Shown piece after piece: positions 1 through 19,417 of a stretch of DNA of 20,153 bases. The notes below the pieces were generated by a model. It was not told the origin of the DNA. It worked only from the letters and a program-made list of their open reading frames with translations, and ran no database searches. Within the stretch, counting starts at the first letter, position 1; the number at the start of each line of letters is the position of its first letter. The position numbers were made by a program, and so were the translations under genes. Source of the DNA: a virus; IMG/VR virus record IMGVR_UViG_3300036770_002097, positions 1 through 20,153 of that record; one strand, 5' to 3'.

Positions 1-3000
1 CTTACCACTTTAGGAGCAGATACCACACCAGCAAACGGGGAAATATTTAGAGCAGTGAGCCCAGGTAGTGTTTTAGTGTCAAGCACCAGCACAGTTCAAT
101 TGCTTCCGGCTGCTTCAGGTGGTAAAGAAATACTTAAATTAGGATTATCTACTAACGGCTCAGATAATCGAAGTGGAACAGGTATCACTACTCAAACACC
201 TGATCATGCTAATGCCACAATAAGAATCTTACAAAATATGAGATTCACCGGCATAGAGAATGTAAATCCAACTAGACCTAGCACTGCATTAGAATTAGAT
301 GCATACTCACAGCACCCTTCGCAGGCTACACTTCGTGTAATTGCCTATAACCTAACTGGTGGTGCTGGTGATCAGTTACCAGATAATATTGCAATATTGA
401 CAACAGACCAAACATTTAACTATGTAAAACCAAGTAGCAAGAGTAACGCATTAACTGGAGGTTACGGTTCAGCAGCTGGTGATACTAAAATAGCTGTTAA
501 TCAGATAACAACAAGCTACTTGATAGATTTACTTAATACAGGAACTTTACAGTTTAGTTGGGCAGGAAAAATGCATCGTATTGTCAGCTATACTGATGCT
601 ACACCTAGCTTAGATGCCTATATTACAATAGAAGATATACTTGACAATAATAATATTCCTGGTGCAGCAAGTGGACTAAGAGAACCTATTCCCAACGATG
701 CAACCAGAACTTTCCGTTCAGGTCTTCCAGCAGGTAGTTCTGGTGCAGTAACTATTAAGATTTCCACTTGTAGAGCTACTGGCCACGATTTTCTAGATAT
801 AGGAACAGGTGGATTCAACACTAGCAATTACCCAACTGCCATATATGGCAATCCTAGCATTGAACCTAGTGATGCTTACGAAATTAAAGAAGAAAATAAA
901 GGTCGTGTTTTCTATGTTACCACAGACCAAGATGGTGTATTTAAAGTAGGTCCATTCTTCAAAGTAGATCAAGGAACTGGAACTGTTACATTTAGTGCCA
1001 GCATTGCTCTTAGCAACTTAGATGGTTTAGGATTTAAACGAGGTGTTACTGTCAGTGAGTTTAGCACAGATAATACCATGACCAATAATGCTGCTGACAC
1101 TGTGCCTACCCAACAGGCAGTGAGAGGATACATTGATAAACGTCTAGGACTAGATCATAACGGAACTAATGTTCCTGTGGCCAACAAGATTGGCCCAGGA
1201 TTTTTACCATTGAACGGTCAAGTTCCTATGGAATCAAATCTTGCAATGGGTAGTAATTTTATTTCTGGGTTAGGCACTCCCGGTGATAGCGATTCAGACT
1301 ATGCTGCTACAGTGGGCTATGTTTTAGGAAAGTTAAACGTAAATGACGAATACGAAGAACTTAAAGATGTTGTAGTAAGATACGGTGAAACTCTAACTGT
1401 TATTGAAAGTGCCAGTGGAACTACTATAACGGTAGCAAGTGGTTATTCTACTAGCTTGTTATTTGTAGACATGCCAATAAGACTAGAGGCAGCATTAGGA
1501 TCTCTATCAGCAACTAAGACATACTATGTTTTATCAAAAACAACAACTACATTTACAGTAGGTGAAGAAAAGAGAGGTGCAGCAGTAACAGTAGGAACAG
1601 TCAGCTCTGTGTCTATTGATGTGTATAAGGCACTAACAGGACATCTTCCAATCTTTGCAGGCGGCAATAATGCTATTGTGTATGCAGACATAAAAGGAGA
1701 TATCTATAGTAAGTATACTGCCGACGGGGTTACTACACTACAGAATTCAATAGCTACAGATCCAGATCCAAGTATTGCACAGAGTATTGTAGCAGCAGGT
1801 GTAGAAGTATACGATGTTAGTGGATTTGTCAACAACTATTCAATATTTGGATCTACTCCAGGCATAGCTCCAAAAAATCATTTCCAAGTAAATGGCGAAA
1901 TCTTTAGTTATACTGGAGTCGATCTAGTTCCTATAGCACCTACATATCCTAATGCAGGCAAGTTAACAGGTGTAACTAGAGCACAAAAACAGTCAAGTGC
2001 TCAAGCACATCTTTCTGGATCTACAGTAATTCCTCTTAATAACGCCAAGCTTGATTTTCAAATTAGTCAAGAAGTAATTGTCAACGATGACGTTCATCCG
2101 AGTGCAGGAATACTACAAAGCAAATTGTCGATGAATGCTGCTACCACTAGAGCAAATGCTACTGGTATAACACAAGCTGACAGAGGACTAGCAAGTTTTG
2201 ATAGTGCTACATTTACCGCAAGCAGTGGTTGGATTAGTATTACTAACGGAAGCATTTCATATAGCAAAATACAAAATGTAGATGCAGGAAGTCTGCTAGG
2301 AAACCTAACAGGAAGTGCTACAACTATTCAACATGTTACACCACAATCTGCTTTAAAACGAGCCATGTGGGATTATTTTAGCAGTAGTTCAACTGCTGAC
2401 ACACAATATGCTTTCACATTTTTAAAACAAAGCAGTGGAGGCACAGAAGATAACTTCTTAACTAAAAACATTATTTCAACTACAGGAGAAAATAATGCCA
2501 TAGTTAAGACTAATAGCACAGGTGGAATTCAAGTTGCTCATGTTAAAACCAATGATTACCAAAACAGTGCAGGTAGCAGTTTAATTACAGCGAGCGGAAC
2601 AAATGTAACATATTACGGTGCTTGGAGTGCAGGTTCAGGAGCATCGTTAAGTGCTACCTATGCAACAAGTGCTGGAAGTGCTACAACAGCAGGTAGCACT
2701 ACCACAGTTACAACAGGAGGCAGTGTAACAACTACTGTTATATCATCAGGCGGTTCTTCTACTGCTGGCACAGTAACAGGCGACTGGACTCTAACTGCTG
2801 GTAGTAAATGGCAAGCCACATATGCTGACTTGGCAGAATACTATACAGCAGATCAAGAATATGAACCTGGCACTGTATTAGTATTTGGTGGCACAGCAGA
2901 AACGACAACTACAAAAACATTTGGAGACAGCCGTGTAGCAGGAGTAGTGACCACTAATCCAGCATATACAATGAATGCAGGATTAGAAGGCCTAAGAGTT

Positions 3001-3198
3001 TGTATTGCTCTACAAGGTCGTGTGCCTTGTAAGGTAGTAGGAAAAATTCGCAAAGGTGATTTGCTAACTACTAGTGCAATATCAGGACATGCAGCCAAAG
3101 CAGTTAATCCTCAAGTAGGAACTATAATAGGTAAAGCATTAGAAGATAAAGATTATGACCAAGCTGGCGTAATTGAAGTAGCAGTGGGGCGTGTATAA
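1..3198 (+). CDS. Large tail-fibre/virion structural protein, 5'-truncated by window edge
   Basis: The frame is open from base 1, with no stop before an internal GTG at 55, so the gene starts outside the window and that GTG is unlikely to be the true start. At least 1065 residues remain, rich in Gly, Ser, Thr and Ala, with no membrane segment. I recognise modules common in marine T4-like virion proteins: a segment reading GRVFYVTTDQDG then VDQGTGTVTFSASIALSNLD (about bases 900-1020), PTQQAVRGYIDKRLGLDH (about 1105-1160), a DYAATVGYV fibre-type module (about 1297), and a conserved C-terminus starting TYADLAEYYTADQEYEPGTV (about 2818) and ending GVIEVAVGRV. The C-terminus could be a folding or cleavable chaperone domain, but that is inference. 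The stop overlaps the next start (TAATG). A virion role is fairly sure; the exact position in the particle is not. Confidence 0.8.
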   Translation, partial: LTTLGADTTPANGEIFRAVSPGSVLVSSTSTVQLLPAASGGKEILKLGLSTNGSDNRSGTGITTQTPDHANATIRILQNMRFTGIENVNPTRPSTALELDAYSQHPSQATLRVIAYNLTGGAGDQLPDNIAILTTDQTFNYVKPSSKSNALTGGYGSAAGDTKIAVNQITTSYLIDLLNTGTLQFSWAGKMHRIVSYTDATPSLDAYITIEDILDNNNIPGAASGLREPIPNDATRTFRSGLPAGSSGAVTIKISTCRATGHDFLDIGTGGFNTSNYPTAIYGNPSIEPSDAYEIKEENKGRVFYVTTDQDGVFKVGPFFKVDQGTGTVTFSASIALSNLDGLGFKRGVTVSEFSTDNTMTNNAADTVPTQQAVRGYIDKRLGLDHNGTNVPVANKIGPGFLPLNGQVPMESNLAMGSNFISGLGTPGDSDSDYAATVGYVLGKLNVNDEYEELKDVVVRYGETLTVIESASGTTITVASGYSTSLLFVDMPIRLEAALGSLSATKTYYVLSKTTTTFTVGEEKRGAAVTVGTVSSVSIDVYKALTGHLPIFAGGNNAIVYADIKGDIYSKYTADGVTTLQNSIATDPDPSIAQSIVAAGVEVYDVSGFVNNYSIFGSTPGIAPKNHFQVNGEIFSYTGVDLVPIAPTYPNAGKLTGVTRAQKQSSAQAHLSGSTVIPLNNAKLDFQISQEVIVNDDVHPSAGILQSKLSMNAATTRANATGITQADRGLASFDSATFTASSGWISITNGSISYSKIQNVDAGSLLGNLTGSATTIQHVTPQSALKRAMWDYFSSSSTADTQYAFTFLKQSSGGTEDNFLTKNIISTTGENNAIVKTNSTGGIQVAHVKTNDYQNSAGSSLITASGTNVTYYGAWSAGSGASLSATYATSAGSATTAGSTTTVTTGGSVTTTVISSGGSSTAGTVTGDWTLTAGSKWQATYADLAEYYTADQEYEPGTVLVFGGTAETTTTKTFGDSRVAGVVTTNPAYTMNAGLEGLRVCIALQGRVPCKVVGKIRKGDLLTTSAISGHAAKAVNPQVGTIIGKALEDKDYDQAGVIEVAVGRV

Positions 3199-5603
3199 TG
3201 GCAAAGCAAACAATTAATGTAGGAACAGCAGACAAAGGTAATGGTGATCCCTTACGCACAGCATTTATTAAAGTAAACAGTAACTTTAATGAGCTATATG
3301 CTGCGCTAGGTGCGGACCTAACAAGTGTGGCATCTCATATTATCCCTGAAACAGACGATACATATGATTTAGGCAGTGCTACACATAAATGGCGAAGCTT
3401 ATATGTTAGCAGCAATACTATCTACTTAGATAACATTCCCCTAAGTGTAGTAGATGGTGTTCTAAAATTAGATAGCCAAACAGTAGGTGGAACACCTGCA
3501 TGGTCTGATATTACAGGAAAACCCGCTATACCATCAACTTTAGATTCACTTACTGATGTTTTTATAACAGGGGCAAGCTCAGGACAAGTATTAAAATACG
3601 ACGGATCTAACTGGGTAAATGGAACAGATAATAGTGGTGGCGGCAGTGGATCTATCTCAGTTGGTGACGGTCAAGGCCCAAGCGTTGAAAATGTCACAGA
3701 GATCTTAATCAACGGCACTATCACTGAAATAGAACCTGGATTAGTTGGTATCAGTGTAAGTGGCAGCGGATCAATTCAACCATACCTAGAACTGACCAAC
3801 GACCCATTCATCATACAGCCTGTAACATTTGGCGAGCCTTTTACAGTCACAGCACCAGTCAGCGGACAGGGAGCGACTTTTAATGTGATCATAGGTGCGG
3901 GACCATTGTTAACTCTCGTTGCTGTAGCCAGTCCTGGCACAGGTTATGTAGTAGGACAGAGATATAAGATATGGTATAACAACATTGGTGGTAATACAAG
4001 CACAAGTTACAACATCACTTTTGAAATAGAAACAGTAGGCGAATCAGGCGAGATACTGACTATCGTCAATCCGCAGTTTAGTGGATCTACTGGAGATAAC
4101 GTTCCAGGTAACTACAGTGGAGTTAGCATAGAACTAACGTCATCAGTGCGTGATGAAATCAGTCCAGGTGTTGTATTGACTAGGAGTCTAAATCAGGCTC
4201 TTTACAACCTCGTATCAGAAACAGAATACGACAACAGCAACTATCTAAGTCCCCTAAACACCGAATGGAACTCAGACGGCTGGGACAATCTAGTAGGCAT
4301 TGGCGGCAGAAGTTTTACAACATTTAGAGCCGCACTAGGTGGACAGGTTGGCAACAACGTAGTCGGTGCTGAGTTAGTAATGCGTGATACTACTACTGAT
4401 CGTTACTACAAGTTTGAGTTCACTGACTGGGGACAGAACAACGGCGGATCCTACACGTACACAAGAACAGAAATCACAGATCCTAACTTCTTCCGCAAAA
4501 CAGACGACGGCGATGAAGTTGATATATTTGTAGCAGATGATGGGCTAGGTGCTGGTATTGGTATCACCCGTGGCGCAGAACAGAGCATCTACAACCCCTA
4601 CAGAGAAGAAGGTTATGTAGAGGAAGACAGTCCAGCAGGCACATTATGGAACATAGGCGGCTGGGACGATCTATCAGACGTAGAGTCGAGAACATATACT
4701 AACTTTTATGCGGCCTACGGCGGTGGATTAGGTAATCGTGTTCCAGGCAGCAAAACTGTAATGTACATTCCAGAAACTGATACCTACTATGCTATACAGT
4801 GGCTATCGTGGACACAGAACGCTAACGGTGGTGGATTTACCTATGTACGCTACGAGTTAGATCTAACTCAAATCAACGAAGGCGTAAAATTCCCAGACGG
4901 CAGTGTGCTAAAATCTGCGGCAGGTGTAGGTCGTGTAAAATCTACAGCATCAGCGGGACGCAGGATAGAAGAAGTAGTAGGTAGTAATACAGTATCAATC
5001 ACTGCGGTAACTACATCTAACATCACTGCCGCGGCATCGAGATCGGTAACTGACAGCAATCAATTCTGGGTATCAAGTACCGCAACAGAAATCGCTCAAA
5101 TATTCAACGATCCTAACTCATATGGTATCCAAGATCTATCTACCATGGAGTTTAGTTTAGACAATGTGACCTGGTATCCTTATGACGGAGGTTACAGTTC
5201 AACTGGTACCGAAATAGGCGTTACTGTGCTCAATGCTAATGTTACCTATAACGAAGGAGATACTATATACTTTAGATACGACACAGGTGGTGCTCCTCAG
5301 GTATGGTGGGATAAAGCAGATTTACCTGGTGGTAGTAGTGACTTCCGCGGTGCTGTCATAGACTATCACGCCTACACAGGCGAAGCAACAATCATTGGAA
5401 CTATACACATCGTTGATGACAGTGGCGAACAGCACATCAGTCACACTGAAGTGGCCAGCGGATCAACTGACAGCGAAAACGATGACCTATGGTTAGTACA
5501 AAATGAAGGTACTATCAGTTATCGTCGCATAGACGGTGAAAGTAAAACATTAAAGATACATTGGACCGCCAAAGTATTCTACGGGACAGAGTTTTGGGAT
5601 TAA
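3198..5603 (+). CDS. Fibre-like virion protein with duplicated internal domain
   Basis: This 801-residue protein begins with an N-terminal module (INVGTADKGNGDPLRTAFIKVNSNFNELY, in part) that recurs in the gene at 8253 and probably docks the protein to a common site. Next comes YDLGSATHKWRSLYVSSNTI (about residues 55-74), a type seen in phage fibres, then a Gly/Ser linker near residue 145. Two homologous domains lie at about residues 321-427 and 451-554. Each has LTRS/ITRG, a YN motif, W(N/D)xxGWD(N/D)L, a (T/Y)xFxAAxGG segment, and ends in a G(S/G)(Y/F)TY(T/V)R signature. The C-terminal part has FPDGSVLKSAAG (about 564) and ends in GTIHIVDDSGEQ and FYGTEFWD. It starts at the ATG that overlaps the previous stop by one base. 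No enzyme motif is visible. A structural or adsorption role is inferred. Confidence 0.8.
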   Translation: MAKQTINVGTADKGNGDPLRTAFIKVNSNFNELYAALGADLTSVASHIIPETDDTYDLGSATHKWRSLYVSSNTIYLDNIPLSVVDGVLKLDSQTVGGTPAWSDITGKPAIPSTLDSLTDVFITGASSGQVLKYDGSNWVNGTDNSGGGSGSISVGDGQGPSVENVTEILINGTITEIEPGLVGISVSGSGSIQPYLELTNDPFIIQPVTFGEPFTVTAPVSGQGATFNVIIGAGPLLTLVAVASPGTGYVVGQRYKIWYNNIGGNTSTSYNITFEIETVGESGEILTIVNPQFSGSTGDNVPGNYSGVSIELTSSVRDEISPGVVLTRSLNQALYNLVSETEYDNSNYLSPLNTEWNSDGWDNLVGIGGRSFTTFRAALGGQVGNNVVGAELVMRDTTTDRYYKFEFTDWGQNNGGSYTYTRTEITDPNFFRKTDDGDEVDIFVADDGLGAGIGITRGAEQSIYNPYREEGYVEEDSPAGTLWNIGGWDDLSDVESRTYTNFYAAYGGGLGNRVPGSKTVMYIPETDTYYAIQWLSWTQNANGGGFTYVRYELDLTQINEGVKFPDGSVLKSAAGVGRVKSTASAGRRIEEVVGSNTVSITAVTTSNITAAASRSVTDSNQFWVSSTATEIAQIFNDPNSYGIQDLSTMEFSLDNVTWYPYDGGYSSTGTEIGVTVLNANVTYNEGDTIYFRYDTGGAPQVWWDKADLPGGSSDFRGAVIDYHAYTGEATIIGTIHIVDDSGEQHISHTEVASGSTDSENDDLWLVQNEGTISYRRIDGESKTLKIHWTAKVFYGTEFWD

Positions 5604-10652: not shown

Positions 10653-13442
10653 ATGTCTATAAGCCAATATCTCCGTAAAAAAGAATACATAGTAACTGTA
10701 AAAAACTTTGACGACTTAGATTCTGTTTACGATGATCTCGAAACAAAAGGCAAATCTCCTCCTAATACAGAAATTATTAGATCAGTAGACATAGTTTATC
10801 GCAGACCAACTAGTAGAAATACGCATTATCTACTAGCAGAATGGGAAGCAGAGCAGTTAAAATTAGATCCCAGAATATTATCAGTGGAGTTAGCTCCGCA
10901 CGAAAGAGGAATTACTCCTGGTCTTAATATTGAACATTCAGAAGAACTAATGGCTGCTCCACCCGAAGACGCATTAGAAATAGTATCCAATACTTCACAG
11001 ACATCGTCTAACTGGGATAAATCAAGCTCTACTACTAGCACTATGAAAAACTGGGGTCTATTACGCTGCACTGAAGGAAGTCAAAGATCAAACTGGGGCA
11101 GCTCTGGATATGAAGGCACAGGAGTAGCAGGAACTTCTGCACAAACAGGAACTATTACTTTATCACAAATAGGAAGAAATGTTGATGTTGTTGTATGTGA
11201 TGAGAATGGCCTAGTATGGAATCATCCCGAATTTGCAGTAAATGCAGACGGAACAGGCGGGTCCAGGGCTATACAATATAATTGGTATCAACACAATCCT
11301 GTAGTTAAAGGAACTTCAGCAGGAACTTATGTTTATGGCACAGGAAGCCACAGCACACATGTAGCAGGAACAGTGGCAGGAAATACTCAAGGCTGGGCAA
11401 GAGCAGCAAACATATACAATCTTTATTATCTTGCAGGTGATGAAAGTGATTACAACTTTCCATATGTTTTCGATTACATAAGAGAGTTTCATCGTAATAA
11501 ATCAACTAATCCTGCCATTGGCAGAAAAAATCCTACAATTGTTAATAACAGTTGGGGTATGAGCATATTTCCTAATGAATGGTCCTTAAGTGATATAACA
11601 CAGGTTACATATAGAGGAACAACTTATAACTCTTCTAGCGGAACTATAACTTATAACGGTCTCAGTGGAGTGTTTACTTCAAATGCAAAAATTGCCGATC
11701 TTCTAGGATTTGAAAACTATGGTAATCGAATAACAACTTCTGGAACCTATACCGCTCCTGGAGGCTATGTGCTTACTAAACCAGCATCGTGGAGCCAGGA
11801 AGGACAACAAGTTTACCTAACTCAATTTCTCGAACCTGCACTAACCTACGATGTAACTGTAGATGGTCCTGCCGATATTGACATTATCCATAATGTTGCC
11901 ATGGACACCTTAACAGGATCTATGAGTTTAGCTGTTTCAGTTTTAATAAAAGATGCCAGTAATAGCACCATACAAACCTATTCAGACACAGCACAGACAT
12001 TTGTTGGCGGAATAATAGAAACTAATATAAACACTTCTTATAATCTTCCAGGCGACCAAACTTACACGATAACCTATACTACTGCTTACACCGTAGGTGA
12101 TCCAGGAGATGGTGGAGGCGGCGGTGGAGGCGGCGACGGAGGCGGCGACGGAGGCGGCGACGGAGGAGGATTCAATGCTAATGTTACTTGGGCTGTGGCT
12201 ATGAGCTTGACTGCTTCAGAAGTAGAGTCATCAGGACCCGCAGCGACTGTTACCTCAATTACTAATAACATTATCGGAGCAGCTAGTTTAACTAGTGCAA
12301 CCGCACCTACTACCGGAAACAATGATGACGGTTATTGGACTTTATCGTTACCATTTAATATTTCATATTTCGGAAACACCTATAACACTATCTATGTAGG
12401 AACTAATCACTACCTAACCTTTACAGGAGGCAGCACAATTTATTCAGGAATAAGTGCTAGTAATCCTAATCTTCCTAAAATATGTTGGTGTGCTGCTGAT
12501 AATAGTGTCCAGAGGATTTATTATGGCACAGAAGGCACGGCACCAAACCGAACTTATAGAGTTCGTCTAGAAGGTAATGCAAGCACCAGTGGCACACTAG
12601 GATCTCCTAATATGGTTTGCGAATATACCTTCTATGAAAATACACCAGCTCAAATAGATTTACAGCTAGGACAAAATAACAGAAAATCTTCTACCGGTGG
12701 TGGGTTTACTACAACGCAACTAAACAGCTGGGGCTTTATTTCTGGGCAGCGTATACCTGCAAGAGTAGCTGCTATGGATGCAGATATAGAGGATGCTATA
12801 GCAGAAGGAATTATATTGGTAGGAGCTGCTGGTAATGGACGTTGGAAACATGATGTTCCTGGGGGTCTAGATTGGGATAATACCTTTCAAATGAATAATA
12901 GATATCCTGGAGAAACTTATTATTATATGAGGGGAACTAGTCCTACTGCAAATGATTCTACAATTAATATTACAAATATCTGCGTAGGATCAGTAGATAC
13001 AACAACCTCAGATAAAAAAGTATTGTATAGTGACTGTGGTCCAGGTGTAGATATATTTGCACCTGGAACTTACATTGTAAGCAGCTTGCCTAGCGGAACA
13101 GGTGATCCTAGAAACTCCAGTTACTATATAGGAAAATATAGTGGAACCAGTATGGCCAGTCCGCAAGTTTGTGGCGTATTAGCCTGTGCATTAGAAGTGT
13201 ATCCTTATTGGAATGAAGCTCAAGCCAAGGCATATATAATCGGAATATCAAAATCAAATCAACTAACTGATACAAGTGGTGGGCCGACTGACGGCGCAGA
13301 TCTTCAAGGAGCACCAAACAGGTTTTTATATTATCGTAAAGAACGCGAAACTACAGGAAATGTTTTTCCTAAAACCACATACAATAGCAGACCTACATCA
13401 GGGGCATTGTTTCCTAGACCAAGAATTAGAAGGAAATTTTAA
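10653..13442 (+). CDS. Subtilisin-family (S8) serine protease with large insert
   Basis: This 929-residue protein carries a full set of S8 protease landmarks: Asp183 in VDVVVCDENG, His233 in GSHSTHVAGTVAG, NNSWG at 298-302, the oxyanion Asn728 in GAAGNG, and Ser833 in GTSMASPQVCG. Residues 1-90 look like an I9-type propeptide: a YIVTV strand, then WEAEQLKLDPRILSVELAPH. About 425 residues separate NNSWG from AAGN, where subtilisins have roughly 30. The insert contains beta-rich sequence, a Gly/Asp linker (487-506), and a domain with FNISYFGNTYNTIYVGTNHY resembling nidogen-like domains. There is no signal peptide, so it probably acts inside the infected cell or on the virion. It lies among virion genes and ends TAATG into the next. 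Possible roles are fibre or capsid maturation, or degradation of host-surface protein. The family call is firm; the substrate is unknown. Confidence 0.9.
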   Translation: MSISQYLRKKEYIVTVKNFDDLDSVYDDLETKGKSPPNTEIIRSVDIVYRRPTSRNTHYLLAEWEAEQLKLDPRILSVELAPHERGITPGLNIEHSEELMAAPPEDALEIVSNTSQTSSNWDKSSSTTSTMKNWGLLRCTEGSQRSNWGSSGYEGTGVAGTSAQTGTITLSQIGRNVDVVVCDENGLVWNHPEFAVNADGTGGSRAIQYNWYQHNPVVKGTSAGTYVYGTGSHSTHVAGTVAGNTQGWARAANIYNLYYLAGDESDYNFPYVFDYIREFHRNKSTNPAIGRKNPTIVNNSWGMSIFPNEWSLSDITQVTYRGTTYNSSSGTITYNGLSGVFTSNAKIADLLGFENYGNRITTSGTYTAPGGYVLTKPASWSQEGQQVYLTQFLEPALTYDVTVDGPADIDIIHNVAMDTLTGSMSLAVSVLIKDASNSTIQTYSDTAQTFVGGIIETNINTSYNLPGDQTYTITYTTAYTVGDPGDGGGGGGGGDGGGDGGGDGGGFNANVTWAVAMSLTASEVESSGPAATVTSITNNIIGAASLTSATAPTTGNNDDGYWTLSLPFNISYFGNTYNTIYVGTNHYLTFTGGSTIYSGISASNPNLPKICWCAADNSVQRIYYGTEGTAPNRTYRVRLEGNASTSGTLGSPNMVCEYTFYENTPAQIDLQLGQNNRKSSTGGGFTTTQLNSWGFISGQRIPARVAAMDADIEDAIAEGIILVGAAGNGRWKHDVPGGLDWDNTFQMNNRYPGETYYYMRGTSPTANDSTINITNICVGSVDTTTSDKKVLYSDCGPGVDIFAPGTYIVSSLPSGTGDPRNSSYYIGKYSGTSMASPQVCGVLACALEVYPYWNEAQAKAYIIGISKSNQLTDTSGGPTDGADLQGAPNRFLYYRKERETTGNVFPKTTYNSRPTSGALFPRPRIRRKF
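12108..12170 (+). repeat. Gly/Asp-coding linker with 12-bp tandem repeat
   Basis: Within the protease insert, GGCGGCGACGGA occurs three times in perfect tandem (12129-12164), preceded by a GGTGGAGGCGGC-type run. It encodes about 20 residues of Gly with regularly spaced Asp. It is far richer in G+C than its surroundings and separates two parts of the insert, as a flexible linker would. Such a repeat is prone to slippage, so linker length may vary between strains. Confidence 0.85.
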
Positions 13443-16090
13443 TGCCATTAAGTATATGGACTCAAGCATCTGGTTTTCGATTCGCTAGTATAGAAGAAAA
13501 CACGTTAGTAGATATTAACTTACCAGTTCAATTTCCTAATGGGTTCGATGACAGTTCCAATCTAACCTTAACGATAGTTGCGGGTCAATTACCTCCAGGT
13601 ATTAGAATTAAGGACCAAAGACTTTTTGGCTCAGCTAGAGAAGTTCCTAGGTCTACGGATTTCAAGTTTGTGATAAGAGCTCAGCTAGGAACAGAGATTA
13701 GCGATAGAACATTCTTTATCACAGTAAACGGCAGCGACGATCCTATATGGCAAACACCAGCAGGAAGTCTTGCTGTGTTCAACTCAAATCAATATTATGT
13801 TCTAGATAGCAGTTACATTGATTTTCAATTAGTAGCAACTGATCAAGATACAGCAGCAGGCCAAGTCTTAAAATACAATAAAATCCGAGGAGAGTTGCCT
13901 CCAGGGCTAATACTAACAGAAACAGGAAGGATTGTAGGCTTTATACAACCTGCATTAAGTATATCAGAGATAGCAGGTGGCGGCGCTTATGATACCACAA
14001 TATTTGACTATATAGCATACGACATAGGAGAAAGGCCAACTAACGGGTACGATAGTTTCTTATTTGAAAACACCTTATACGATTATGCTACTCCTAGCCT
14101 GAGTCCTAAAAAATTAAATCGATATTATGAATTTGTTGTAAAGGTTTCCGACGGAGACAGTAGTTTTGATAGAACATTTAAAATATTTGTTGTAGGCGAT
14201 GACTACTTTAAAAGTGACTCTATCAGTATTAAAACTGGGTCTGGAACATTTACCGTAGATACTACTTTTGTAAGAGCGCCGATTTGGGTAACTCCTAAAA
14301 ACTTAGGAATTTATAGAGCAAGTAACTATCATACCTATAAACTAGACATTTATGATGATAAAAATTTAGGTCCTGTTAACTACGAGCTAGACGCTATTAA
14401 CCCAAGAATAAAAGCTATAGCATCAACTACGTCATCTTCTGAAAACAAAATCACCACAAACAAAATACGTATAACAGAAACAGATGGTGTCCCTAACCTA
14501 ACAGATAAAGTTTATTTAAAAAATTGGGTAGAGCGTTATATAATTCCAGAAAATCCTGGAGACCCTATCCAAGTAATACAAGCAGATGACACAGTCTATA
14601 ATATAACTCATATAGAAACTGTCAACAGTTCTGAATATGTTTTAACAGTCTATCCTAATTTGACCATTACCATTCCTAAACGAACTGCAATAGGACTAGG
14701 ACCTGTCAGTGAAATTCCACCTGGAATGAATTTTGATGTAGGCAGCGGCGAAGTGTTTGGTGTGATTCCTTATCAAACAAATATTACATTAACCTATAAT
14801 TTTACTGTAATCGCATACAGGTCTCAATTCCAAGGAGACCATATTGAGATTGGAAGATCACGTAGAACATTCACTGTGACCATATTAGGAACTGTCGATA
14901 GTGTGATTTCTTGGGATTCAGATTCTAACCTCGGACAACTTCCGGCTAATTTAATCAGCAACTTATTTGTTAAAGCAACTACAACTATTCCAAATACAAG
15001 TTTATACTATGTGATAAAATCAGGAAGTTTACCCCCAGGATTAACACTGAACTTAGACGGCGAAATTATAGGTAAAGTAAATCAATACGGAGATGTTAGT
15101 AACCCTGGGTTAATCACATTTGATGATACAGAAACAACCTTTGATAATACAGAAACAACCTTTGATAAAGTTTATCGATTTACCATAACTGCTCGTGATA
15201 TGGTTAATTTTGACAGTTCAGATAAAGAATTCACTTTAGAAATACTGACTCCTAATGAAGAACTGTATAGTAATATCAGTGCCAAACCATTCTTTAATCT
15301 TGCTCAACGAAATATCTTTAAATCTTTTATAAACAATACTGAAATATTTGTTCCGAACTACATCTACAGACCAGATGATCCAAACTTTGGTGTTCAGAAA
15401 AACTTAAAAATGCTAATCTATGCTGGCATCGAAACCCAAACTGCAAACACTATAGCACGAAAAATGATACTTAACCATAGAAGAAAAAGATTTATTCTAG
15501 GCAATATTAAATCAGCTCAAGCCAAGCTACCTGGAACTAACACTGTGGTTTATGAAATAATATATTTAGAAATCATAGATCCACTTGAGATTAACGGAAA
15601 AACATTACCTAATGTTATTAAAACTAGCGATGGAACAAGAGCGGTTACCGTGGATCAGAATAATGCCTATAATACTGGTCCGTTCGACCAACTTACTCCT
15701 TATTGGGGACCTGCTGATCCATTTTATGCGCCAGTAGATAGCAATTTTGTATTTGCAGGAGATAGCTACACAAGTTGGAAATTTCCTAGCAGTATAACAT
15801 TATGGCGTAAGCGTATAAAAGAACTAGGACTACGTGATAGAAACTACTTGCCTTTATGGATGAGATCTGTTCAAGAAGGATCTGTTGTAGAACTAGACTT
15901 TCAACTTGCGGCTCCTTTATGCTATTGCAAGCCAGGGTATAGCAAGGATATACTTTTAAATATAAAAAATAACTACTTTGATTTTACACAACTCGATTAC
16001 GAAATAGATAGATACATAATCGACAGCGTGACCGGAGATAGCTCCGATAAATATCTCGTATTTAGAAATGACAGGACCACTATATCATGA
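13442..16090 (+). CDS. Virion protein with four putative-Ig (He_PIG-like) motifs
   Basis: This 882-residue protein starts at an ATG overlapping the protease stop (TAATG), with AGGAAA just upstream. Four copies of the (L/I)PPG(L/I/M)...G.(I/V/L).G signature of putative-Ig/cadherin-like folds occur near residues 50-63 (LPPGIRIKDQRLFG), 152-166, 425-438 and 530-543. Beta-rich segments typical of such domains (for example FKFVIRAQLG, FTVIAYR) follow. The C-terminal part (about 610-882) is different and more polar, with NYLPLWMRSVQEGSVVELDF, APLCYCKPG and LDYEIDRYIIDS, a region I recognise from marine T4-like structural proteins. A perfect-frame 21-bp duplication sits near residue 560. Such Ig-like arrays often decorate virions or bind carbohydrate; that role is inferred. 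The stop overlaps the next start (ATGA). Confidence 0.78.
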   Translation: MPLSIWTQASGFRFASIEENTLVDINLPVQFPNGFDDSSNLTLTIVAGQLPPGIRIKDQRLFGSAREVPRSTDFKFVIRAQLGTEISDRTFFITVNGSDDPIWQTPAGSLAVFNSNQYYVLDSSYIDFQLVATDQDTAAGQVLKYNKIRGELPPGLILTETGRIVGFIQPALSISEIAGGGAYDTTIFDYIAYDIGERPTNGYDSFLFENTLYDYATPSLSPKKLNRYYEFVVKVSDGDSSFDRTFKIFVVGDDYFKSDSISIKTGSGTFTVDTTFVRAPIWVTPKNLGIYRASNYHTYKLDIYDDKNLGPVNYELDAINPRIKAIASTTSSSENKITTNKIRITETDGVPNLTDKVYLKNWVERYIIPENPGDPIQVIQADDTVYNITHIETVNSSEYVLTVYPNLTITIPKRTAIGLGPVSEIPPGMNFDVGSGEVFGVIPYQTNITLTYNFTVIAYRSQFQGDHIEIGRSRRTFTVTILGTVDSVISWDSDSNLGQLPANLISNLFVKATTTIPNTSLYYVIKSGSLPPGLTLNLDGEIIGKVNQYGDVSNPGLITFDDTETTFDNTETTFDKVYRFTITARDMVNFDSSDKEFTLEILTPNEELYSNISAKPFFNLAQRNIFKSFINNTEIFVPNYIYRPDDPNFGVQKNLKMLIYAGIETQTANTIARKMILNHRRKRFILGNIKSAQAKLPGTNTVVYEIIYLEIIDPLEINGKTLPNVIKTSDGTRAVTVDQNNAYNTGPFDQLTPYWGPADPFYAPVDSNFVFAGDSYTSWKFPSSITLWRKRIKELGLRDRNYLPLWMRSVQEGSVVELDFQLAAPLCYCKPGYSKDILLNIKNNYFDFTQLDYEIDRYIIDSVTGDSSDKYLVFRNDRTTIS
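15119..15160 (+). repeat. 21-bp tandem duplication in the Ig-like virion gene
   Basis: Two 21-base copies (15119-15139 and 15140-15160) differ at one base (GATGAT versus GATAAT) and are followed by a partial third start (TTTGATAA). They encode FDDTETT and FDNTETT. The duplication keeps the frame and looks recent, since only one base has changed. Confidence 0.9.
16046..16053 (+). promoter_or_regulatory. Candidate T4-type late promoter (GATAAATA)
   Basis: GATAAATA differs at one base from the T4 late consensus TATAAATA and lies 33 bases before the ATG at 16087, inside the end of the preceding gene. Eight-base matches occur by chance in AT-rich DNA, so this is only a candidate. Confidence 0.25.
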
Positions 16091-16919: not shown

Positions 16920-17411
16920 ATGAGACATGACAAATACGGCAGACCTATTTTTCAAGAACAAGATTTATTTGATCTTCTGTATCAAGACAACTTAGATAAG
17001 TTACAAGACGTTATAGCAGAACATACAGCTCAAACAGAAAATATACCTGGTCTCAAGTTTGAAACTAAGGAAGCCCAGTCAATAACAGATTTTGATCAAA
17101 CACATCAAGCAATTTGGTTCATGCCTGAAGAATACTATGACATAGACATAGAAAAACATATTATCGAACTTTGCCCGCCTTGGGACCCGGAGCATTCTAG
17201 AGTTACAGAAGAATTAACCAGTTTTAAAGAAAAGAATATGCTGAATCTTTTGAAATGGCTAAAATATTTTGTAGATACTGCTAGGAAAAATAACATTGTA
17301 TGGGGAGTAGGTCGCGGCAGCAGTGTAGCAAGTTATGTGTTATTTTTACTAGGAGTCCATAAAATTAACAGTATCAAGTATAATTTAGACTTCAAAGAAT
17401 TCTTAAGATAA
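16920..17411 (+). CDS. DNA polymerase III alpha-like fragment protein
   Basis: This 163-residue protein has a C-terminal half that resembles the start of the polymerase palm region of bacterial DnaE/PolC. Residues 94-163 show the order RVTEEL...F...NMLNLLKWLKYF, ARKNNIVWGVGRGSSVASYV (121-140), LGVHKINSIKYNL, FKEFLR. In DnaE the equivalent GPGRGSxxGSLVAYxLGI...FERFL segment is followed within about ten residues by the catalytic PDxDxDF. Here the protein stops at FLR, so the catalytic aspartates are missing, and there is no PHP domain. The first 90 residues are unlike DnaE to my eye. It could be a regulator, decoy or small accessory factor derived from a Pol III palm. The resemblance is clear; function is unknown. 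The start lacks a strong ribosome-binding site and lies 9 bases after the previous stop. Confidence 0.75.
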   Translation: MRHDKYGRPIFQEQDLFDLLYQDNLDKLQDVIAEHTAQTENIPGLKFETKEAQSITDFDQTHQAIWFMPEEYYDIDIEKHIIELCPPWDPEHSRVTEELTSFKEKNMLNLLKWLKYFVDTARKNNIVWGVGRGSSVASYVLFLLGVHKINSIKYNLDFKEFLR

Positions 17412-17435: not shown

Positions 17436-17651
17436 ATGGCTATGAAACAACCCCAAAGACAAGTTTATAGAACAATGCAGGGAAAAGAAATTGACATGGA
17501 TAAGCTAAGAATTAAACACGAAATGACCTTAGCAGTTGGCAATGCTAAAATGAATGCTCGTGGAGACGAAATTGGACCTGGAGGAAGAATTGTTCGCAAA
17601 CGCGAAGAATCTTCAGTAGAATACCACACAGATAACAAGGATATGAAATAA
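17436..17651 (+). CDS. Small basic protein of unknown function
   Basis: This 71-residue protein is preceded by a good AGGAG. It is rich in Lys, Arg and Met, with MAMKQPQRQVYRTMQGKEID at the start and a compact motif VGNAKMNARGDEIGPGGRIV near residues 34-53. The second motif, NARGDE(I)GPGG, looks conserved-type and turn-rich. A basic, largely unstructured protein such as this could bind nucleic acid or a virion component, but nothing in the sequence decides. It sits directly upstream of the co-chaperonin gene with a three-base gap, so the two are probably co-translated. Confidence 0.72.
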   Translation: MAMKQPQRQVYRTMQGKEIDMDKLRIKHEMTLAVGNAKMNARGDEIGPGGRIVRKREESSVEYHTDNKDMK

Positions 17652-17654
17652 CAA

Positions 17655-18002
17655 ATGGGATTTGAAACTTTAACTAACCTAAAACTTAGACCTTTAAGAG
17701 ATACTATCTTAGTAAGAGACCTAGACTCTGAAGGGATCCAACTTAAATCAGGCATTTACATACCTAGTCAAGATGGTAAAACTGCTGGCATTAAACCCAG
17801 ATGGGCAAAAGTCTACGCCACTGGTCCAGATCAAAACAATGTAAAAGAAGGTGAATGGGTTTATGTAGAGCATGGACGATGGACTAGAGGAGTTGAAATT
17901 GCCGAAGGCGGTGAAACTTTTACTGTAAGAAGAGTAGACCCAGACAACATCTTATTGTCTGCCGATGAACGCCCAGAAGATACACTTATTAAAAATGACT
18001 AA
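17655..18002 (+). CDS. GroES/gp31-like co-chaperonin
   Basis: This 115-residue protein resembles GroES, the cap of the GroEL folding chamber. LKLRPLRDTILVRD (residues 9-22) matches the GroES opening strand (the RPLxDRxxV pattern). SGIYIPS (32-38) lies where GroES has its mobile-loop GG(I/V)VL tripeptide. RWAKVYATGPD corresponds to the GEVLAVG strand, VKEGEWVYVEHG (63-74) to the VKxGDxVxF strand, and RRVDPDNILLSADE (92-105) to the ESDILAI end. T4 uses gp31 in this role to fold its capsid protein with host GroEL; this is a likely analogue. It is slightly longer than GroES (about 97 residues), with an extra tail. It follows the 71-residue gene and overlaps the next by eight bases. Confidence 0.85.
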   Translation: MGFETLTNLKLRPLRDTILVRDLDSEGIQLKSGIYIPSQDGKTAGIKPRWAKVYATGPDQNNVKEGEWVYVEHGRWTRGVEIAEGGETFTVRRVDPDNILLSADERPEDTLIKND

Positions 18003-18499: not shown

Positions 18500-19417
18500 A
18501 TGAAAGAACTTTGGACAGAGAAATACAGACCTAGAACCTTGGACGGATATGTGTTTAAAGATGAGGCTACCAAAGCACAAATTGAACAATGGACTAAAGA
18601 AGGTAGTATTCCACATCTTATGTTTAGCGGCAGTGCTGGAGTAGGTAAAACTACTTTGGCAAAAATATTAATCAATCTTCTTAATGTAGAAGACACAGAT
18701 GTATTATTTGCCAACGGCAGTAAAGAAGGACGCAAGATCGAATGGGTCGACAAACTAATAGGTTTTTGTCAAACCATGCCGTTTGGAGAATTTAAAGCAG
18801 TCATTATTGACGAAGCTGACTACCTTAACGCACAAAGCGTTCAGCCTGCCATGCGTAATCTAATGGAGCAGTATAGCCAAACAGTCCGTTTCATCCTAAC
18901 CTGTAATTACCCAAATAAAATAATTCCTCCTTTACATAGTCGTTGTCAAAAAATACACATCGAACGCACTGACATAGACGAGTTTACAGCTAGAGTAGCA
19001 ACTATACTAGTCGAAGAGAACGTTGACTTTGAGCTAGACACATTAGACACTTTTGTTAAAGCAACTTATCCCGATCTTAGAAAATGCATAAACAATGTTC
19101 AAATGAACAGCATCGGCGGCGTGCTAAAACGTGAAGAATCCAGTAATGATTCTCAAGACTATCGTATTGAAATGGTGGAATTATTTAAGATAGGTAAGAT
19201 TTCAGAAGCACGAAAACTTGTATGCAGTCAAGCAAGACCAGAAGAAATGGAAGATATCTATCGCTGGCTCTATGACAATGTAGAAATATTTGGAGATGAA
19301 GCCCGACAAGAAAAGGCTATTCTTACAATTAAGCAAGGGCTGGTAGATCATTCCTTAGTAATGGACCCAGAGATCAATCTAGCAGCCACTCTTATCAGGC
19401 TAAGTCATATTAGTTAA
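18500..19417 (+). CDS. 44: Sliding-clamp loader ATPase subunit (T4 gp44-like)
   Basis: This 305-residue AAA+ ATPase resembles T4 gp44 and the small subunits of replication factor C, which open the sliding clamp and load it at primer ends. It begins WTEKYRPRTLDGYVF, the RFC box of this family. Walker A is GSAGVGKTT (44-52), Walker B is VIIDEAD (101-107), a sensor-1 segment is LTCNYPNKI (133-141), and the SRC arginine-finger motif is at 147-149 in HSRCQ. The length is close to T4 gp44 (about 319). The upstream 48-residue gene carries its ribosome-binding site. In T4 gp44 neighbours gp45 and gp62; neither is visible here, and the gene instead faces phoH. Confidence is high for the family. Confidence 0.93.
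   Translation: MKELWTEKYRPRTLDGYVFKDEATKAQIEQWTKEGSIPHLMFSGSAGVGKTTLAKILINLLNVEDTDVLFANGSKEGRKIEWVDKLIGFCQTMPFGEFKAVIIDEADYLNAQSVQPAMRNLMEQYSQTVRFILTCNYPNKIIPPLHSRCQKIHIERTDIDEFTARVATILVEENVDFELDTLDTFVKATYPDLRKCINNVQMNSIGGVLKREESSNDSQDYRIEMVELFKIGKISEARKLVCSQARPEEMEDIYRWLYDNVEIFGDEARQEKAILTIKQGLVDHSLVMDPEINLAATLIRLSHIS
19414..19417. other. TTAA shared by two convergent stop codons
   Basis: The clamp-loader stop (TAA, 19415-19417, + strand) and the phoH stop (TAA read on the - strand, 19414-19416) share the palindromic TTAA. There is no intergenic DNA between the converging genes. Confidence 0.97.

Follow-up and report, generated by a model that had tools for sequence, protein, structure and literature searches.

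The palm-entry gene

A short open reading frame (ORF) lies near the 3′ end of a 20,153-nucleotide viral sequence, IMG/VR record IMGVR_UViG_3300036770_002097, the whole of which is here termed the window. It comprises 163 codons from an ATG start to a TAA stop, and is followed by a small gene named for its NARGD motif, a GroES-like co-chaperonin gene and a clamp-loader gene (Table 1). Its product, hereafter the N-half, is likely to be the N-terminal, nucleoside triphosphate (NTP)-binding half of a phage-specific, minimal C-family (DnaE-type) DNA polymerase encoded by two genes.

Table 1. Features of the window in and around the N-half gene.
Feature	Position	Strand	Evidence
Likely N-terminal half of a split minimal DNA polymerase III (Pol III) α, phrog_11127 family, 163 residues	16920..17411	+	PF07733, phrog_11127, AlphaFold2 model and fold matches
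Palm-entry segment, residues 92–162, homologous to E. coli DnaE ~322–392	17193..17405	+	PF07733, alignment, profile–profile comparison
GRGS motif, residues 131–134 (E. coli G361–S364), NTP-binding loop of the Pol III palm	17310..17321	+	Alignment; equivalence by ungapped alignment
Conserved break point, last residue R163 and stop codon; catalytic DxD not in the window but, in complete relatives, in a second gene at another locus	17406..17411	+	Endpoints of relatives; C-half start M-DIDIDF
NARGD gene, 71 residues, phrog_14844, immediate downstream neighbour	17436..17651	+	Conserved neighbour of N-half
GroES-like co-chaperonin (Cpn10), conserved neighbour	17655..18002	+	PF00166, E = 3e-7
gp44-like sliding-clamp loader, nearby replication gene	18500..19417	+	phrog_168, E = 2e-77

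The palm-entry segment of the N-half matches positions 24–94 of the 260 in Pfam family PF07733 (DNA_pol3_alpha) with E = 6.3e-13 and 49.4 bits, the bit-score cut-off being 23.9. Furthermore, phrog_11127, annotated ‘DNA polymerase’, matches the protein over its full length (E = 2.8e-40). Profile–profile comparison with 34 cellular DnaE sequences gave E = 9.5e-10, compared with E values of at least 0.096 for ten column-shuffled control profiles. Alignment with E. coli DnaE requires no gaps, N-half residue i corresponding to DnaE residue i+230, and the DnaE order of GVGRGSSVASY, an LLGV helix and FKEFLR is retained. GRGS (G131–S134) is invariant in an alignment of 61 relatives; in C-family structures, this loop positions the triphosphate of the incoming 2′-deoxynucleoside triphosphate (dNTP). 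The homology to the DnaE/PolC palm entry and the motif order described in the initial annotation, which was made from the sequence alone, are thus confirmed.

An AlphaFold2 model built from the 61 relatives has a mean predicted local distance difference test score (pLDDT) of 92, and its 15 best fold matches in the PDB are all C-family polymerases, in keeping with the predicted Pol III palm. The top Foldseek match, 5fkv_A, is partial (probability 1.00, E = 0.018, TMq 0.47), the modest scores being expected of a model that represents only half a palm. By Pfam, PHROG, structural model and profile comparison, the ORF corresponds to a standalone N-terminal, NTP-binding half of Pol III α. It does not encode a complete DnaE/PolC replicase, in which a single chain holds PHP, palm, thumb and fingers, as its 163 residues end one residue past the Leu equivalent to DnaE L392, ~9 residues before D401. 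This ending ahead of the catalytic aspartates had been recognised in the initial annotation, and it proves to be a family trait: EF[LMF][RK] is the exact terminus of 86 out of 90 distinct N-half sequences from IMG/VR and genome-contig loci, and the remaining four end within 2–6 residues of it.

A second gene carrying the catalytic aspartates

Large phages carrying the N-half also possess a second small gene of ~190 codons, hereafter the C-half, tens to hundreds of kb away. A profile of the 34 cellular DnaE sequences weakly matched a 204-residue ORF in a 382-kb relative (E = 0.034), which its motifs then confirmed as the C-half; orthologues are present in the phages Paride, 2.275.O (a Vibrio phage) and GAP32 (phmmer E = 6e-62 to 1e-40). 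Both a Pfam PF07733 search and a motif scan demanding PDxDxDF missed this gene, as the thumb has been lost and Met or Thr usually takes the place of the Pro. Many C-half ORFs begin Met-Asp-Ile-Asp-Ile-Asp-Phe, the catalytic motif following directly on the start, with the initiating Met in the position of the Pro of PDIDIDF. The GAP32 gene lies at 213271–213921; a weak PF07733 match at GAP32 56579–56737, considered as a candidate C-half, was dropped as it falls below the cut-off and contains internal stop codons. Many deposited genomes label the C-half ‘putative membrane protein’ or ‘hypothetical protein’ (e.g. GAP32 213271–213921 and L308 4947–5597).

The C-half motifs follow the DnaE order (DnaE counterparts in brackets): DIDIDF; HNTGVY (HAAGVV); GYFKxDfLN (GLLKfDFLG); FHxNGh..iL..mKP..i.qLA..LAmIRP (FQfES.gM...L...kP..fedl.A..ALyRPG); and FKKxHAxSYA (FNKSHAAAYA). 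K-x-D supplies the third catalytic Asp, the fingers core ends in RP, and KxHxxxYA holds the steric-gate His. No variation is seen among 31 C-halves at D2, D4, D6, K62, D64 and H167, which correspond, by motif and alignment, to E. coli D401, D403, D405, K553, D555 and H760. The active-site residues of E. coli DnaE are D401, D403 and D555, and its steric gate is H760, described as invariant in all Pol III α (PMC8485763).

Other comparisons agree with this assignment. The fingers family PF17657 is matched by 26 of the 31 members (best E = 2.9e-6), and individual members match phrog_11778, annotated ‘DNA polymerase’. The C-half profile matches DnaE with E = 4.4e-7, the best of ten shuffled controls reaching 0.0065. 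Correspondingly, the AlphaFold model (pLDDT 89.4) finds only C-family polymerases among its 13 best PDB matches (best E = 7.6e-4), so that the predicted folds of both halves resemble Pol III α.

The C-half is also shortened. Its first catalytic Asp precedes HNTG by 28 residues, whereas the median distance to HAAG in DnaE is 110, and its third Asp precedes the steric-gate His by 100 residues rather than 194. On the domain map of E. coli DnaE, the first shortfall is the thumb and the second lies within the fingers. PHP, thumb and C-terminal domains are all absent from the two-gene set. The break between the genes falls in the linker before the catalytic strand, and each protein keeps the catalytic residues of its own side.

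Co-occurrence and conservation of the two halves

The two genes are found together with few exceptions. Among 60 listed N-half and 60 listed C-half phage records, 59 are common to both; the N-only record, Bacillus phage KLEB27-3, encodes a larger DnaE whose pieces are separated by an HNH endonuclease gene, and the one C-half record without an N-half is a partial genome of 109 kb. Both halves occur in all six isolate genomes examined and in all four metagenomic contigs of at least 270 kb that carry the N-half. Shorter contigs often lack one half, as is to be expected of fragments. The Mg2+/template-binding half is thus a separate, distant gene in complete relatives, and no fused N+C protein was found near either gene in 59 C-half loci.

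A tblastn search with the N-half returned 76 phage records, nearly all of them jumbo phages among the matches listed, including the RaK2/GAP32/121Q and PA5oct/Paride groups, Atu_ph07, Phosso, SCTP-2 and a Vibrio phage. In IMG/VR, at least 591 viral stretches encode N-half relatives. In a major marine jumbo-phage cluster, PF07733 has been reported as the one distinguishing gene to occur in half of the members or more (51.9%; PMC9123017). The ratio of non-synonymous to synonymous substitution rates (dN/dS) is ~0.05–0.13 between close N-half pairs; the family is under strong purifying selection and is therefore not debris.

Six N-half matches lie in bacterial and candidate-phyla metagenome-assembled genomes (MAGs); since NARGD and GroES-like genes accompany them as well, these are probably phage contigs. 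The MAG bins into which such contigs have been placed are assigned to Saccharibacteria, Rickettsiales, Neomarinimicrobiota, Pelagibacter and Methylophilaceae.

The main polymerase of N-half phages belongs to family B. Outside the window, a family B polymerase is present in nine of nine related records tested, in line with the T4-type enzyme that the initial annotation had presumed.

Gene neighbourhood

The order N-half, NARGD gene, GroES-like gene is kept at 88 of the 90 relatives when scored by motif, one of the two exceptions being at a contig end. The position beside a co-chaperonin, at first regarded as odd, is therefore normal for the family. A gp44-type clamp-loader gene, often with PhoH, lies downstream of these three genes in isolates, and the clamp loader is found in the same order near the N-half in Paride, Phosso, SCTP-2, GAP32 and Atu_ph07. 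Helicase, primase and DnaB-type helicase genes lie near the C-half, such that both loci stand among replication genes. A small opposite-strand gene lies just downstream of the C-half in five of five isolate phages examined.

The NARGD protein has a conserved core, ‘VDM..L...NE.T.AVGN..VNARGD.LG.GG.I’, and a variable tail; it has no Pfam match, and phrog_14844 is annotated as of unknown function. Its ‘EIDMDKL’ segment was considered as a source of the DxD motif in trans and rejected, as the second acidic position varies among D, E, G, A, N and H across relatives; the first can be N or E.

Virion genes lie upstream in the window. Among them, positions 10653–13442 encode a 929-residue protein that includes a protease domain of the subtilisin type (Peptidase_S8, E = 2.5e-21) and whose N-terminal part matches phrog_9158. 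Positions 3198–5603 encode a large virion protein with a T4 gp9/10-like N-terminus (PF07880), and positions 13442–16090 a virion protein with a putative immunoglobulin-like domain (He_PIG).

A model for the proposed split enzyme and its alternatives

It is proposed that the N-half and C-half dock with each other to complete a single palm. Within it, the N-half GRGS loop would hold the triphosphate of the incoming dNTP, the DxD and third Asp of the C-half would bind two metal ions, and the C-half fingers helix with the steric-gate His would close on the sugar. We infer that such a complex would polymerise DNA without a thumb, acting alongside the family B replicase and in concert with further replisome proteins of the phage. 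Its reliance on those proteins is probable because it lacks PHP, thumb, OB and tau-binding parts, and its role in the phage is probably that of a short-tract, repair or lagging-strand enzyme, not the main replicase. The fuller proposal is that half-palms encoded by two separate genes, and lacking PHP and thumb, form a working C-family polymerase beside a family B replicase in a very widespread group of large phages, the GroES-like and NARGD proteins perhaps aiding assembly; we consider the case for it evenly balanced.

Several observations weigh against a split polymerase. The loss of the thumb (~80 residues between DxD and HAAG) and of ~95 fingers residues makes DNA grip and processivity doubtful. 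E. coli R390, on the N side of the break, is replaced by a nearly invariant Glu (E160) in the N-half. The two loci are 34 kb apart in GAP32, 43 kb in Paride, where the genes are Paride_0087 and Paride_0017, and more than 200 kb in Phosso, and are therefore not coupled at the operon level. The C-half of the window's own phage would lie outside the record, which spans only 20 kb. Lastly, the open-access papers searched contain no report of a split polymerase being produced or put to experimental test.

The alternative that fares best is that the halves assemble into a repurposed complex, either a nucleotide-binding or structural replisome subunit or a terminal nucleotidyltransferase, which does not copy a template. 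The lost thumb and fingers residues, the Arg-to-Glu replacement and the presence of another replicase in these phages all fit such a role. We nevertheless consider it unlikely, as every C-half retains an invariant set of three catalytic Asp residues, the Lys that precedes the third of them, and the steric-gate His, which is hard to account for without dNTP chemistry.

The initial annotation had suggested a non-catalytic palm fragment acting on its own, either by binding the primer strand or by interfering with a host replicase. The ORF does lack the catalytic Asp residues, and the phages do use a family B polymerase; however, the N-half is almost always accompanied by the catalytic half, and the catalytic residues retained in each are exactly those of its own side. 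As the missing aspartates are encoded by a second gene of the same genomes, a split minimal Pol III α is a much likelier identity for the protein, and a lone fragment of this kind is improbable.

A full-length DnaE interrupted at this point by an intron, intein or frameshift has a precedent in KLEB27-3, yet is refuted for the phages examined: six complete phage records hold no other PF07733 match above the cut-off, the downstream gene belongs to an unrelated conserved family, and the C-half, shortened and thumbless, is encoded at a distant locus by a gene of its own that has its own start codon. A frameshift restoring the catalytic motif, which would have undercut the initial annotation, was not borne out, as there is no PDxDxDF directly downstream of the N-half in the window. 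A decaying relic of a once complete DnaE, suggested by the many missing domains, is ruled out for the relatives sampled by the selection test, by an endpoint kept within 0–6 residues in 90 relatives and by the number of viral stretches that carry the family.

Should the two proteins prove to be an enzyme together, the amount of protein required for C-family catalysis would be far smaller than has been assumed, and two unrelated DNA polymerases would operate in these phages. To our knowledge, no heterodimeric, thumbless C-family polymerase has been demonstrated before, and this one would also be Pol III in its smallest form. The proposal lends itself to direct testing, since the break point is exactly defined and both genes are short enough to synthesise (~165 and ~190 codons).

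Comparison with known systems

The ORF belongs to a family for which a prediction has already been published and which is widespread and easy to test. For the group 2.2 jumbo phages, Atu_ph07 among them, Iyer et al. (2021; PMC7824862) describe a Pol III α in a ‘phage-specific minimal version’, the NTP-binding and Mg2+/template-binding subdomains of which are split into distant genes beside a family B polymerase. They suggest that it cooperates with the family B enzyme in the synthesis of one strand or in repair. Atu_ph07 has both halves in the present searches, and no difference from their system was found, the match resting on their text and on shared phages. Iyer et al. thus reached the split-enzyme reading independently; relative to their text, the present analysis adds the exact break point, the loss of the thumb, near-perfect co-occurrence and the conserved neighbourhoods. 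Elsewhere, the CBB genome paper reports a 172-residue truncated α (PMC5259590) and the Atu_ph07 paper a conserved α gene (PMC6102473); the partner gene is mostly annotated ‘hypothetical’ or ‘putative membrane protein’.

Other large phages also have C-family polymerases. The full-length DnaE of group 3.2 phages and the interrupted DnaE of KLEB27-3 have a cellular-type architecture, sometimes with an intron-like endonuclease gene, and are not of the minimal two-gene form. In KLEB27-3, a DnaE-like polymerase at 1373–5297 is annotated as two pieces around an HNH endonuclease gene, which suggests an intron; this interruption differs in kind from the split between N-half and C-half. Furthermore, phrog_7513 (461 residues, positions 393–439) and phrog_13169 (463 residues, positions 340–409) have the palm-entry segment near their C-terminal end, and other phages may thus have a different two-gene split of DnaE.

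Bacterial DnaE and PolC share with the proposed split enzyme the palm entry with GRGS, the DxD motif, the third Asp, the fingers motif ending in RPG and the steric-gate His. In contrast to these single-chain polymerases, the phage set comprises two chains, lacks the PHP, thumb, OB and tau-binding domains, and has fingers ~95 residues shorter.
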